Positions 6,725-51,263 of a DNA stretch of 64,000 nucleotides are shown here, one piece after another. Within the stretch, counting starts at the first letter, position 1; each line of letters opens with the position of its first letter. The translations under genes and the position numbers were made by a program. The notes beneath the pieces are model-generated. The model ran no database searches. It had not been told where the DNA came from and saw only the letters and a list, made by a program, of their open reading frames with translations. Origin of the DNA: Arthrobacter castelli DSM 16402 (GTDB taxonomy: Bacteria; Actinomycetota; Actinomycetes; Actinomycetales; Micrococcaceae); NCBI RefSeq assembly GCF_000430705.1, contig NZ_AUMN01000007.1:124001-188000 (forward strand), read 5' to 3'.

Positions 6725-6822
6725 GGGGTGTCGCCATATTCAGGCCGTGGATGCTGCGTTAAGGATTATGACCGGCGGAAATTGTCGTTGGAGGCCCGCA
6801 TAGGGTCAAATAGAGACTGTAA

Positions 6823-6916
6823 CCATCCCGAGCGGCCGAGAGACCTGGATCGTTGACGCCGCAGCAACCAAGTCGTGTCTGACACGAAAAAGGTGCTACC
6901 GCCAGGACCGATGGAG
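6823..6916 (+). ncRNA. SAM-clan (S-box, SAM-I or SAM-I/IV-type) riboswitch, copy A
   Basis: The element opens with CCATCCCGAGCGGC and closes with GTGCTACCGCCAGGACCGAT followed by GGAG, so CCATC pairs with GATGG as the closing stem. Between them are GAGAGACCTGG and GACGCCGCAGCAACC, the kink-turn and core segments of S-box RNAs. The variable arm is a short hairpin CGTGTC-TGA-CACG. Two further copies in this window share both ends almost exactly while their variable arms differ yet still pair. It precedes a DmoA-like monooxygenase by 95 bases. Class assignment within the SAM clan needs a covariance search. Confidence 0.88.
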
Positions 6917-7010
6917 AAACATCAGCTTTGCGTTTTTCTCCCGCGATCACCCGCGCGGAGATATGCGGCAGGATGTGCATTCCATGGGCCGATTCGAAGG
7001 AGCCCCTGCG

Positions 7011-26096: not shown

Positions 26097-26181
26097 CGGA
26101 GGATGAGGGATTCGAACCCTCGAGGGCGTTACCCCAACACGCGTTCCAGGCGTGCGCCATAGGCCGCTAGGCGAATCCTCC
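26097..26181 (-). tRNA. tRNA-Ser, anticodon GGA
   Basis: The minus strand folds as a class II tRNA. The acceptor stem GGAGGAT pairs with ATCCTCC. The anticodon loop CTGGAAC gives anticodon GGA, which reads UCC serine codons. There is a long variable arm, and the T arm contains GGTTCGAATCC. The 3' CCA is encoded at 26094-26096. Confidence 0.96.
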
Positions 26182-26361
26182 TCGTTTGAGCAGACTCCAG
26201 AATACCTGAAGCATTTCTGTGAGCCGAATCGAGGCTCCGAGCCGGCGCCGCATGGATCGGCAACTACTCCCAATACGCATTCCTCAGCCGTGGAACCGGC
26301 CACTTCAAACCGAACGACCGCCGGTTTCCGCCTGAACTTCGCCGTCAGGTAGACTATTGGC
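26182..26361. other. Intergenic region between tRNA-Ser and ffs
   Basis: This stretch of 180 bases holds the divergent promoters for tRNA-Ser and SRP RNA. TAGACT at 26350-26355 is the likely -10 element of ffs, seven bases before the RNA start. I see no gene here. Confidence 0.5.
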
Positions 26362-26451
26362 TGGCCCCTCACGTGGCGTCATCCTGTGAACTCCCCCAGG
26401 ACCGGAAGGTAGCAAGGGTAAGCGGGCTCTGGCGGGTGCGTGAGGGGTCTT
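26362..26451 (+). ncRNA. ffs: Small bacterial SRP RNA (4.5S)
   Basis: The region has the universally conserved SRP core GACCGGAAGGTAGCAAGG, including the GGAA tetraloop and the asymmetric loop that binds Ffh. It is closed by a long helix from GCCCCTCACG and CGTGAGGGGT. It lies just upstream of dnaX, a common actinobacterial position. Ends are estimated from the helix. Confidence 0.93.
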
Positions 26452-26569
26452 CTCATTCGACTCCGGCGTCTGCCGTGCGCAGCGGAAGAGATATCAACAG
26501 CTGCACACCTGCGCGGGTGCACTCCGCCGCCAGGTGCCGATAGGGTTTTACTGTGACTGGAGGAATGCC

Positions 26570-45686: not shown

Positions 45687-47339
45687 TCAGGCAGGTGAAC
45701 GGGGTGCAGGCACTGAACTGAGTTGAAGCCGCGGCCAATCCTCCGTGTCCCGCAGTAGCTGGCGATCGTGGGAGGCCAGCACCACACAAGCTTCGGTGGC
45801 ACCGAAGGCGTCGGTCAGCTCGTCCACGAGAGCAATCGAGAGGTGGTTTGTCGGCTCGTCGAGCAGCAAGACGTGCGGTCGGGAGGCGAGCACCATAGCA
45901 AGGTCCAGACGGCGCTGTTGTCCCATGGACAATTCCCGGGCCGGCTTGTCGAGATCCGCCGCCGACAGCAGTCCCAACTGTGACAGGGGTATCGCTTCGT
46001 CCTCCTTCAACGTTCCAGAGCTGACCAGTCTGCCCATGTGGCTTCCAAACACGTCCTCCGGCCCTCCCCGCGCAAAGCCGACCGATTCCTGGGGCAGCAG
46101 TCCCACGCGGGCGTTGCGGGCTTGCCGCACGGTGCCGTTCGTAGGTTCGAGCCGACCGGACAGCACGGAGAGCAACGTTGTCTTGCCCGAACCGTTCGGC
46201 CCGGTCACCACCAGCCGCGAACCTGACGCCAGGCCGACGTCGACGGCGTCATGCAGCCTGTCCGCGACCCGTACGCCGTCTGCGGTGACCAAGGCGACGC
46301 CTGGATGGGCAGGCAGTTCCGGCATCCGGAACCGCAGCGGCGGCACCGGAGCCGTGATGGCGTGCTGCTGCAACTCGTCACGGCGGCGGTTCACCGAACG
46401 AACAATGCCCGGAGCCCTGCTCTGCCGTTGGTGCTTGCCCGTGCCCTTATCCGGACGCCACCCGGAGCTGAGCCGGTTCCGGGCTTCGGCCAGATCATGG
46501 GTAAGCCGAGCATGATCCGACTGTTGCCGTTCGTACTCCGATTCCCAACGTTGCAGTTCGGCCTCGCGCCCCTGGCGGTAGCCGTCGAATCCGTCTCCGT
46601 ACACCCGCGGCAGCCCGTCGCGGCTCTGGTCAAGGTCGAGTATTGTCGTCACGACGTCGGACAGCAGGGCCCGATCATGGCTGACGACGACGACACCTCC
46701 GGCATGTTCGCGGAGTTTTGCCGTCAGGAAGTCGAGTCCTGCCGCATCCAAGTGATTGGTCGGTTCGTCCAGCAGCAGGAAGTCGACTTCCGCGCCGAGC
46801 AGGCATGCCAGACGCACCCGGTACCGCTGGCCGACCGACAGTTCGGCCAGCAACCGGCTCCGGTCCGCCACCGCATCCAGACGGTCCAGCGCGAGATCGA
46901 TGCGGCGGTCGGCGTCCCAGGCGTCGAGCGCCTCGGCCGCTTCCAGCGCGGCAGTGTATTCGTGCTCGGCACCCGGACTGCCCTCGGCCAGGGCAGCCGC
47001 ACCTTCGTCGAGTGCAGCCAGTGCCGCACGTGCGTCGGCAATCTGTTCATCGATGAATTGGCCAATCGTCCTGTTGCCGTGCGATGCCATCTCCTGGTCA
47101 GCCACGCCGACAGTGCCAATCCGCTGCACCCGGCCCTCATCGGGTGTCAATGTGCCCGCAAGGACCTGTATCAGTGTCGATTTTCCCCGGCCGTTCTCCC
47201 CGACCACGCCCCACCGGGAACCGGGCGATACGGTCATTTCAACCTGTGAGAGGACGCGTCGGCCACCGCGGTTAACGCAGAGGCCGGATGTCATCAGTTG
47301 CGCCCGCGCACGAGCGGGCAGTATAAGAGTGCTCTTCAT
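45687..47339 (-). CDS. ABC-F family ribosome-associated ATPase, probable antibiotic-resistance type
   Basis: This 550-residue soluble protein has two ABC modules and no membrane segment. Walker A motifs are GENGRGKST and GPNGSGKTT, the signatures are LSVGQRYRV and LSMGQQRRL, and both Walker B motifs end LLLDEPTNHL. An arginine- and glutamate-rich linker of about 90 residues joins the modules, as in ARE-type ABC-F proteins that push antibiotics off the ribosome (TlrC, SrmB and VmlR types). GAGG four bases before the ATG sets the start. A leader of about 160 bases carries two tiny ORFs and two hairpins, which points to antibiotic-induced control. The drug class cannot be read from the sequence. 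Confidence 0.88.
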   Translation of the reverse strand: MKSTLILPARARAQLMTSGLCVNRGGRRVLSQVEMTVSPGSRWGVVGENGRGKSTLIQVLAGTLTPDEGRVQRIGTVGVADQEMASHGNRTIGQFIDEQIADARAALAALDEGAAALAEGSPGAEHEYTAALEAAEALDAWDADRRIDLALDRLDAVADRSRLLAELSVGQRYRVRLACLLGAEVDFLLLDEPTNHLDAAGLDFLTAKLREHAGGVVVVSHDRALLSDVVTTILDLDQSRDGLPRVYGDGFDGYRQGREAELQRWESEYERQQSDHARLTHDLAEARNRLSSGWRPDKGTGKHQRQSRAPGIVRSVNRRRDELQQHAITAPVPPLRFRMPELPAHPGVALVTADGVRVADRLHDAVDVGLASGSRLVVTGPNGSGKTTLLSVLSGRLEPTNGTVRQARNARVGLLPQESVGFARGGPEDVFGSHMGRLVSSGTLKEDEAIPLSQLGLLSAADLDKPARELSMGQQRRLDLAMVLASRPHVLLLDEPTNHLSIALVDELTDAFGATEACVVLASHDRQLLRDTEDWPRLQLSSVPAPRSPA

Positions 47340-47356
47340 TTTTCCTCTAACTCCAG

Positions 47357-47388
47357 ACACACGCGTCCCCTCGCCAGGGGAGGTGTGT
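47357..47388 (-). promoter_or_regulatory. Second leader hairpin before the ABC-F gene
   Basis: ACACAC pairs with GTGTGT and, inside, CCCCT pairs with AGGGG. The hairpin lies 18 bases before the ABC-F start codon, and its 3' arm ends close to the GAGG ribosome site. It may influence access to that site depending on whether ORF 2 is being translated. Confidence 0.4.
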
Positions 47389-47392
47389 TAAA

Positions 47393-47422
47393 TCAACGGA
47401 CACGCGGCCGTGCACCGGCCAT
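47393..47422 (-). CDS. Leader peptide ORF 2 of the ABC-F gene
   Basis: An ATG at 47422 opens a 9-codon ORF (M-A-G-A-R-P-R-V-R, then TGA), rich in arginine with an R-P-R run. It begins just after the terminator's T-tract and ends five bases before a second hairpin. It has no obvious ribosome site. Arginine/proline-rich tails are common in stalling peptides, which makes it a candidate sensor, but the evidence is positional. Confidence 0.35.
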   Translation of the reverse strand: MAGARPRVR

Positions 47423-47424
47423 GT

Positions 47425-47458
47425 CAAAACGCCCGCAAGCTCAGTGGCTGAGGCGGGC
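47425..47458 (-). terminator. Intrinsic terminator/attenuator in the ABC-F leader
   Basis: On the minus strand GCCCGC then CTCAG, a CCA loop, CTGAG, CTT and GCGGGC form a nested stem, directly followed by GTTTTG. This is one of the few hairpins in the window with a T-tract. It lies between leader ORF 1 and ORF 2, the right place for transcription attenuation. Confidence 0.6.
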
Positions 47459-47472
47459 CGTCCGGAGTCCGA

Positions 47473-47496
47473 TTAGAGGTAAAGAAGAGTTTGCAC
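47473..47496 (-). CDS. Leader peptide ORF 1 of the ABC-F gene
   Basis: A GTG at 47496 opens a 7-codon ORF (M-Q-T-L-L-Y-L, then TAA). TAGGAT at 47503-47508 lies six bases before the GTG, the same leaderless geometry seen for other genes here, so the first codon would be the transcript's 5' end. It stops 15 bases before an intrinsic terminator. Such short leaders are sites where drug-bound ribosomes stall; translation is inferred. Confidence 0.45.
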   Translation of the reverse strand: MQTLLYL

Positions 47497-47579
47497 CCGA
47501 CTATCCTATCAACTTGATTTCATATTATGACTCCCCGGCTTGAAACCGACGGGCTGTATCGCGTTTAGTTGGAAGTTGC

Positions 47580-49737: not shown

Positions 49738-49803
49738 CTCGCGCGCAACCGGGCGCAACATTGTTTGGAATCACCGGCGCCGGCCTGCCAGACTGAAACT
49801 TGA

Positions 49804-49894
49804 CCATCCCGAGCGGCTGAGAGATCTGGCTCCGCGACGCCGCAGCAACCCGGTCCGCAAGGACATCCGGGTGCTACCGCCAGGACCGATGGAG
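49804..49894 (+). ncRNA. SAM-clan riboswitch, copy C
   Basis: This copy has the same ends as copies A and B. The variable arm is the shortest, GGTCC-GCAA-GGAC. It stands 14 bases before the metY start. The closing stem ends GATGG, followed by AGTAGGAG, the ribosome site. metY is a classical target of methionine-responsive riboswitches, which supports the call. Confidence 0.92.
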
Positions 49895-49907
49895 TAGGAG
49901 CCTCCCC

Positions 49908-51263
49908 ATGACCGAACCTTCCTTCGGATTCCGCACCCGCGCCCTGCACGCCGGCGGCACCCCGGATGCCACCCATGGTTCCCGGGCCGTGCCGATCTAC
50001 CAGTCGACGTCGTTCGTCTTCAAGGACACCAACGACGCCGCCAACCTGTTCGCGCTGCAGAAGTACGGCAACATCTATTCCCGCATCGGCAACCCCACTG
50101 TGGCGGCGTTCGAGGAGCGCATCGCCTCGCTGGAAGGCGGCATCGGGGCGGTGGCGACGGCGTCGGGCATGAGCTCCGAGTTCATCACCTTTGCCGCATT
50201 GGCCGGCGTCGGGGACCACATTGTGGCGGCCTCAGCCCTCTATGGCGGCACGGTGACCCAGCTCGACGTAACGCTGCGCCGCTTCGGGATCGAGACCAGC
50301 TTTGTCCCGGGCACCGACCCGGCCGACTACGCCGCCGCGGTCCAGGAGAACACCAAGGCGGTCTACGCCGAGGTCATCGCCAACCCCTCGGGCGAGGTCG
50401 CGGACATCGCCGGGTTGGCCAAGGTGGCGCACGACGCCGGGGTCCCGCTGATCATCGACGCCACGTTGTCGACGCCTTACCTGGTGCGGCCGATCGAGCA
50501 CGGCGCCGACATCGTCATCCACTCCGCCACCAAGTTCATTGGCGGGCACGGCACCACGTTGGGCGGCGTCGTCGTCGAATCCGGCCGCTTCAACTGGGGC
50601 AACGGCAACTTCCCGTCGATGACCGAGCCGGTTGCCTCGTACGGCAACGTCAGCTGGTGGGACAACTTCGGCGAATACGGTTTCCTTACCAAGCTGCGCT
50701 CCGAGCAGCTGCGTGACATCGGACCCTCGCTCTCCGCCCAGGCCGCGTTCCAGTTGCTGCAGGGTGTGGAGACGCTGCCGCAGCGGATGGACGAGCACCT
50801 GAAGAACGCTCAGGCAGTTGCGGAATGGCTCGACGCTGACGACCGGATCGAGTATGTCAGCTACGCCGGCCTGCCCTCGCATGTGCACTTCGAGCGGGCG
50901 CAGCAGTACCTGCCCAAGGGACCGGGTTCCGTCTTCAGCTTCGGTATTAAGGGCGGGCGCGACGCCGGACAAAAGTTCATCGAATCGCTGCAACTGGCCA
51001 GCCACCTGGCCAATGTCGGCGACGCCCGGACGCTGGTGATCCACCCCGGGTCCACCACGCACCAGCAGCTGAACGCGGAACAACTCGAGGCCGCCGGAAT
51101 TCCGGAGGACCTGGTGCGGATTTCGGTGGGTCTGGAGGACCTGGAGGACATCCTCTGGGACCTCGACCAGGCACTGACCGCCGCCGTCCCCACCGGTGGT
51201 CGAGTAAGCGAGGAACGAGCGCACCGAGACCCGCATCGAGACTTTGAAGGAGCCAATCAGTGA
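49908..51263 (+). CDS. metY: O-acetylhomoserine sulfhydrylase
   Basis: This 451-residue PLP enzyme makes homocysteine from O-acetylhomoserine and sulfide, and can make methionine directly with methanethiol, releasing acetate. SRIGNPTVAAFEERIASLEGG and SATKFIGGHGTTLGG with the PLP lysine are diagnostic. AGGAG seven bases before the ATG sets the start. A SAM-clan riboswitch is just upstream. The last 20 or so residues (from VPTGGRVSEERAHRD) are foreign to the family and come from a REP-like element. The stop overlaps the next gene (GTGA). Confidence 0.95.
   Translation: MTEPSFGFRTRALHAGGTPDATHGSRAVPIYQSTSFVFKDTNDAANLFALQKYGNIYSRIGNPTVAAFEERIASLEGGIGAVATASGMSSEFITFAALAGVGDHIVAASALYGGTVTQLDVTLRRFGIETSFVPGTDPADYAAAVQENTKAVYAEVIANPSGEVADIAGLAKVAHDAGVPLIIDATLSTPYLVRPIEHGADIVIHSATKFIGGHGTTLGGVVVESGRFNWGNGNFPSMTEPVASYGNVSWWDNFGEYGFLTKLRSEQLRDIGPSLSAQAAFQLLQGVETLPQRMDEHLKNAQAVAEWLDADDRIEYVSYAGLPSHVHFERAQQYLPKGPGSVFSFGIKGGRDAGQKFIESLQLASHLANVGDARTLVIHPGSTTHQQLNAEQLEAAGIPEDLVRISVGLEDLEDILWDLDQALTAAVPTGGRVSEERAHRDPHRDFEGANQ
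51191..51232. repeat. REP-like half-element at the 3' end of metY
   Basis: This begins CACCGGTGGTCGAGTAAGCG and ends CACCGAGACCC, matching the right arm and centre of the element in purL. It is read in frame as the C-terminal tail of MetY. It may be a decayed copy of a once complete palindrome. Confidence 0.65.

Follow-up and report, generated by a model that had tools for sequence, protein, structure and literature searches.

A conserved, putatively leaderless upstream open reading frame with a predicted anti-Shine–Dalgarno pairing in the leaders of actinobacterial ABC-F genes

Inducible ribosome protection by ABC-F proteins is a main route of resistance to macrolides, lincosamides, and pleuromutilins. 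To our knowledge, the control of such genes in actinobacteria is known from just a few Streptomyces genes. A 64,000-nt stretch of the genome of Arthrobacter castelli DSM 16402 (contig NZ_AUMN01000007.1, positions 124,001–188,000; hereafter, the window) contains an ABC-F gene preceded by a leader with a very short upstream open reading frame (uORF) next to a promoter-like element, and the question raised by this locus is whether and how the uORF controls the gene. Coordinates are those of the window, and the gene and its leader are on the minus strand.

The gene (45687–47339) encodes a protein of 550 amino acid residues. Its start was assigned to ATG 47339 on protein homology, replacing GTG 47360. 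The best NCBIfam match was the TlrC/CarA/OleB/SrmB family of producer ABC-F proteins (NF000171) with 333.6 bits, which does not reach the curated cut-off of 800 bits for membership, and the second was the ribosomal protection-like ABC-F family with 310 bits, below the cut-off of 380. These profile scores place the protein among the antibiotic-resistance ABC-F proteins, with the TlrC/CarA/OleB/SrmB model as its closest match though well under the cut-off of that model. A close homolog (E ≤ 1e-125) was found in just 41 of 398 genomes of the window's family and was absent from a genome of the same genus; the gene is therefore accessory. The closest relatives found had about 63–72% protein identity, with none nearer. 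For comparison, 122 ABC-F homologs with 45–72% identity were gathered by protein similarity alone, and their upstream regions were then inspected.

The initial annotation had described TAGGAT, six bases, and a 7-codon ORF starting with GTG, and all of these were present. TAGGAT (47508–47503) is part of an extended −10 element, TGA-TAGGAT (47503–47511, with TG at 47511–47510), and the ORF (47473–47496) reads GTGCAAACTCTTCTTTACCTCTAA, that is, GTG CAA ACT CTT CTT TAC CTC TAA, encoding MQTLLYL*. Its GTG lies 157 nt upstream of the ABC-F ATG. From the spacing to the −10 element, transcription is inferred to start at GTG 47496 itself. A scan of the window leader for sigma-70 −35/−10 promoters gave nothing at threshold, and an extended −10 element without a −35 box fits better than such a promoter. 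No Rfam family matched the leader (47340–47508) at gathering score.

This arrangement was conserved among the homologs. The signature TANNNT, 6 or 7 nt, ATG or GTG, and 6–9 codons was found in 95 of the 122 leaders vs 0.35% of dinucleotide-shuffled leaders (0.6% for shuffles of the window leader alone), and with 6–18 codons it was found in 113 leaders vs 1.0% of shuffles. A slightly wider rule recovered 116; the six leaders that it missed were read by eye, and five of them carried the same uORF at a different spacing or distance, so that a uORF was present at this place in 121 of 122 leaders. In 98 non-redundant leaders, the spacing from the −10 element to the start codon was 6, 7, and 8 nt in 53, 43, and 2 leaders, respectively, and TGn directly preceded the −10 element in 43, compared with a mean of 5.7 at other offsets. 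In the 98 leaders at the rule's spacing, the uORFs started only with ATG (52) or GTG (46), and the Shine–Dalgarno (SD) strength was −3.1 kcal/mol before the uORF vs −7.6 kcal/mol before the ABC-F gene, indicating that the uORF has no SD. A −10 element 6–7 nt before ATG or GTG without an SD is the layout of a leaderless uORF. It was found in Micrococcaceae, Microbacteriaceae, Nocardia, Rhodococcus, Actinomadura, Nonomuraea, and Streptomyces as well as on plasmids. From these sequence comparisons, a conserved, putatively leaderless uORF is seen to precede nearly all examined relatives of this ABC-F gene across Actinomycetota. The initial annotation had regarded a leaderless sensor as unusual, and this now appears less exotic: mycobacteria translate any mRNA starting with AUG or GUG, and their leaderless mRNAs start at these codons and not at UUG or CUG (PMC4633059), and leaderless poly-cysteine attenuators have been cited for these bacteria (ref. 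47 of PMC13236596).

The commonest uORF peptides were MHLYFL*, MQYLFFL*, MQYLYFL*, MHLPLYL*, and MPRLFFL*, and the window peptide MQTLLYL* is a divergent member of this family, the consensus of which is MHLYFL*/MQYLFFL*. The genome-wide chance expectation was assessed with the shuffled leaders and with a search for the MHLYFL* DNA pattern. Across 395 whole genomes from the class, this pattern had three matches; each of them came just after a −10 box and lay upstream of an ABC-F gene belonging to this family. MHLYFL was kept with synonymous variation (CAT/CAC, TTG/CTG/CTC/TTA, TAC/TAT, TTC/TTT, and CTG/CTC). Constraint at the peptide level was moderate, with a pN/pS of 0.60 calculated from pairs that are not independent. 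The uORF class followed the ABC-F phylogeny with 2 changes vs 15.9 in shuffles, a pattern suggesting that each type of peptide suits a particular class of drugs.

Folding of the window leader placed the 3′ end of the uORF opposite the ribosome-binding site of the ABC-F gene. In both the minimum-energy and the centroid folds, 47488–47474, comprising the last codons of the uORF up to the second base of its stop codon (TCTTCTTT-CCTCTA), paired with 47349–47333, and this helix, designated P0, sequestered the predicted SD of the ABC-F gene, TAGAGG (47344–47349), whose six bases had an unpaired probability of ≤ 0.01 in the free fold. P0 was extended by pairing of 47468–47460 (ACTCCGGAC) with 47358–47350 (GTCTGGAGT), just upstream of the SD, and related complementarity (CCGGACGG/CCGTCCGG) was visible in the Actinomadura leaders. 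Three hairpins were enclosed: P1 (47431–47458; GCCCGC-CTCAG/CTGAG-GCGGGC), followed by GTTTTGAC; P2 (47399–47425; GACAT-GGCCG/CGGCC-GTGTC); and P3 (47359–47388; ACAC...TCCCCT/AGGGGA...GTGT), directly 5′ of the SD. The fold energy of the leader was 5.6 standard deviations below that of shuffles (z = −5.64). The nested GC stem with a T-tract that had been noted earlier corresponds to P1; the hairpin itself stands, and its tract is just G followed by TTTT (47429–47426). A homologous hairpin occurs in relatives, usually without a T-tract. The hairpin noted close to the ABC-F ribosome site corresponds to P3 and ends 9 nt before the SD. A 9-codon second ORF (MAGARPRVR*, 47422–47393) had also been proposed; it is present in the sequence and was rejected as a real ORF, being probably meaningless because it has no SD, lies inside P2, and lacks a start codon in the aligned relatives.

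The P0 pairing was recovered comparatively. RNAalifold closed the nearest leaders by pairing the uORF 3′ end with the ABC-F SD, and an independent Nocardia alignment again gave this helix, enclosing three hairpins that included P2 and, as the equivalent of P3, a hairpin GGCACACC...GGTGTGCC kept before the SD; P0 was predicted independently in two alignments (A2 and A3). Under permutation and shuffle tests, which ignore shared ancestry, the duplex of each uORF end with its own partner was stronger than that with swapped partners (−10.65 vs −8.94 kcal/mol; 0 of 2000 permutations were as good), 72% of positions paired in the fixed register vs 39–56% in slid registers, and, in 14 leaders, the P0 helix contained 11 double-change cells vs 4.2 in shuffles (0/500), with a covariation score of 0.205 vs 0.123 (0/500). 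In the window, the change of the stop codon from TGA to TAA is matched by a compensatory C-to-U change beside the SD. In the large MHLYFL*/GAAGG clade, P0 is shorter and contains a G-A mismatch, and another stem (UGACGGC:GCCGUCA), which includes the stop codon and is followed by UUU in some members, may therefore matter more there.

When the ribosome was modeled as a simple mask on the uORF, the cost of opening the SD of the window decreased from 17.0 to 6.0 kcal/mol. The mean cost over 81 leaders of this type decreased from 12.4 to 6.7 kcal/mol, and control masks of the same length placed elsewhere had no effect (12.7 kcal/mol); when the mask is long, some bases of the SD remain able to pair within an extended P3. 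By computation, then, the position of a ribosome on the uORF alters the controlling structure, and an SD that is sequestered at rest is freed by that ribosome.

The conserved and covarying element of these leaders is the pairing between the uORF 3′ end and the ABC-F SD, and this points to translation attenuation. The leader thus probably acts by translation attenuation, with a leaderless uORF at its core: a ribosome that stalls on reaching the end of this uORF would mask the anti-SD contained in it. The model is as follows. Transcription would begin at the GTG of the 7-codon ORF, and the ribosome would initiate directly on the 5′ terminus of the transcript. Without the drug, the uORF would be translated and the ribosome released fast, and the uORF 3′ end (UCUUCUUU-CCUCUA, which runs into the stop codon) would pair with the ribosome-binding site of the ABC-F gene, located some 130 nt further downstream. 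This pairing would close the predicted three-hairpin junction (P1–P3) and hide the SD, as fold and covariation indicate. With a ribosome-targeting drug, the ribosome would stall close to the stop codon or to the sense codon preceding it and cover the anti-SD, and the freed SD would allow production of the protective factor. Additional termination of transcription at P1 may contribute in some species. Four steps have computational support: the uORF, its placement as a leaderless ORF, its pairing as an anti-SD, and the relief of this pairing once a ribosome occupies the uORF. The transcription start at GTG, drug-dependent stalling, and induction are inferred. A conserved leaderless sensor of this kind would explain how many such genes stay silent until the drug arrives.

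The annotation that prompted this analysis had proposed ribosome-mediated attenuation in which an antibiotic stalls the leading ribosome and prevents a terminator from forming. The comparative data strongly support ribosome-mediated attenuation through a leaderless first ORF, and relief of a terminator is not the best-supported mechanism. According to this proposal, P1 or the stem overlapping the uORF stop codon would be an intrinsic terminator blocked by the stalled ribosome, as is known for msrD, lmrC, and vmlR (PMC10314930, PMC8546547, PMC9226507). TTTT follows P1 in the window, the leader from Corynebacterium flavescens (L048) has a clear hairpin and T-run right after the uORF, and another (L003) has a good terminator, CCGACCA...TGGTCGGATTTTTT, directly after it. 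However, terminator-like sites between the uORF and the gene were found in 18 of the 98 leaders vs 11% of shuffles and were thus hardly enriched, so that no intrinsic terminator is conserved family-wide; P1 of the window, with just four T residues, was not reported by the terminator scan, and its relatives mostly lack a T-run. We regard transcription attenuation as unlikely. Partial termination at P1 combined with SD sequestration by P0, as in cplR of Clostridioides difficile and vmlR of Bacillus subtilis (PMC10201436, PMC9226507), is possible, if still on the unlikely side: P1 and P0 coexist in the window fold, but the terminator is equally weak here, and such a combination is a superset of the translation attenuator rather than a separate mechanism.

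Two further readings concern the uORF itself. If any slowing on the uORF, by amino-acid shortage or by any inhibitor, exposed the SD, the leader would be a general sensor of translation stress and the peptide would go unread. The anti-SD role constrains the 3′ nucleotides of the uORF and could alone yield the ...(Y/F)FL* ending, pN/pS is just 0.60, and the WblC/WhiB7 uORFs, as cited in PMC12421871, respond broadly. Nevertheless, MHLYFL is kept through synonymous codon variation, also where the pairing is weak, and each ABC-F clade has its own class of peptide; both points make this reading quite doubtful. That the leader has no regulatory role, with a mini-ORF arising by chance (on its own, it has just 7 codons) and the structure as a by-product of high G+C content, is hardly credible, being contradicted by the conservation, placement, and specificity of the uORF, by the covariation, and by the fold z-score.

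The translation attenuator that we favor shares parts with several known systems. The uORF of msr(D), which encodes MsrDL, is leadered. This Streptococcus gene is likewise an ABC-F gene under a 6-codon hydrophobic uORF, and the ribosome translating MsrDL (MYLIFM*) is arrested with erythromycin at the stop codon, which is held in the A site (PMC10314930). MHLYFL* resembles MYLIFM* in its length and in the arrangement of its hydrophobic residues, and the window peptide is a heptapeptide. From this resemblance, a macrolide-type inducer is plausible, and arrest at the last codon of the MHLYFL*/MQYLFFL*/MQTLLYL* peptides by a macrolide-like drug is a tentative suggestion that we hold with less than even confidence. 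The control of msr(D) relies on a Rho-independent terminator, whereas the uORF here is leaderless and its conserved partner is the SD. The CplR and VmlR leaders also combine an ABC-F uORF with SD sequestration, plus transcription attenuation (PMC10201436, PMC9226507). However, their uORFs have 3 codons and are found in Firmicutes, that of VmlR has an SD, and the SD of the gene is hidden by a local hairpin, whereas in the present leaders the partner of the SD is the 3′ end of the uORF itself, at a distance of 130 nt. Among actinobacteria, LmrC, TiaA, and Are5sc of Streptomyces are ABC-F proteins whose genes are under ribosome-mediated attenuation (PMC8546547, PMC12421871). The uORFs of tiaA and are5sc were described with ribosome-binding sites, the peptides being MLV, MRS, and MVGDDDISG, and lmrC acts via a terminator and an unusual uORF2; none has an MHLYFL-type peptide, and none was described as leaderless. 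In cat, the SD is sequestered until the drug stalls a ribosome on the leader ORF and the SD is thereby released. The same holds for ermC, as summarized in PMC10219788. Both differ from the present leaders in having leadered uORFs, other genes, and local hairpins in place of a long-range helix closing around three hairpins. A leaderless short ORF that senses at the mRNA 5′ end for downstream genes is known from the mycobacterial poly-cysteine attenuators (Canestrari 2020, as cited in PMC13236596; predicted in PMC4633059), which, as presented there, sense cysteine through Cys codons, with no antibiotic or ABC-F gene.

ABC-F attenuation in Streptomyces (lmrC, tiaA, and are5sc) and leaderless poly-cysteine attenuators are already known. 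In the literature searched, no report of a leaderless uORF for an ABC-F or antibiotic-resistance gene was found, and a search for the MHLYFL peptide gave no match. The class may have been missed so far because uORF4u looks for an SD before the uORF and because, according to its authors, no uORF could be predicted for actinobacterial Ard1, which lacked close homologs. Whether these leaders form a phylum-wide sensor class in Actinomycetota, with leaderless 6–9-codon ORFs at mRNA position +1, MsrDL-like arrest at the stop codon, and the anti-SD in the same nucleotides, is a broader proposal against which we lean only slightly. If it holds, a single short stretch would combine the roles of start signal, drug sensor, arrest site, and lock. 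Because each protein clade has its own class of peptide, it becomes testable which drug each ABC-F protein answers to. The same applies to the question of whether ribosomes initiating without an SD can act as sensors in the presence of the drug.

Other peptide groups were found among the relatives. A sister ABC-F clade carries Arg/Lys-rich uORF peptides such as MYRGIASMKLRSAR*, compared with the short aromatic/hydrophobic peptides of the window's clade, and these are reminiscent of the +X+ macrolide-arrest motif (PMC10314930). In 17 loci of this clade, the leaderless uORFs were longer, with endings such as SMKLRSAR*, PSRRLRPVL*, and KPWTRR*, and the stop codon was followed by CGGCGGC, with GCCGTC and CCGGGCGG/TGCCCGG downstream. 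The anti-SD mechanism was rejected for this clade because a mask on the uORF hardly shifted SD opening (from 12.0 to 10.8 kcal/mol); from its sequence, the leader looks like an ermC-style four-segment attenuator. Leaderless uORFs of 3–4 codons (MDN*, MLS*, MNL*, MRL*, MRS*, and MDLS*) also seem to occur, as read from the leaders, right after the −10 box in a different ABC-F group with 37–41% identity (6 of 22 loci vs 0.45% in shuffles).

Some relatives are plasmid-borne, some are followed by an MFS transporter gene, and some lie near cmx or erm(46). Six plasmid pairs of ABC-F and MFS transporter genes, from Microbacterium, Gordonia, Janibacter, Glutamicibacter, and Micrococcus, carry uORFs of these families, and one of them adjoins cmx. 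At two loci of Prescottella equi, the ABC-F gene is near erm(46). The leader and uORF (MNYLFFVYWG*) of L048 from C. flavescens are almost identical to those of L123, found in a genome (G255) that belongs to the window's family and has two copies of the ABC-F gene; this likeness probably reflects recent horizontal transfer, attenuator included.

Elsewhere in the window, SAM riboswitches were found at gathering score at 49801–49895 (+) and 6820–6917 (+), the former preceding an O-acetylhomoserine-type sulfhydrylase-like ORF at 49908. A bacterial small SRP RNA (26360–26455, +) adjoins a tRNA on the other strand (26097–26181, −).
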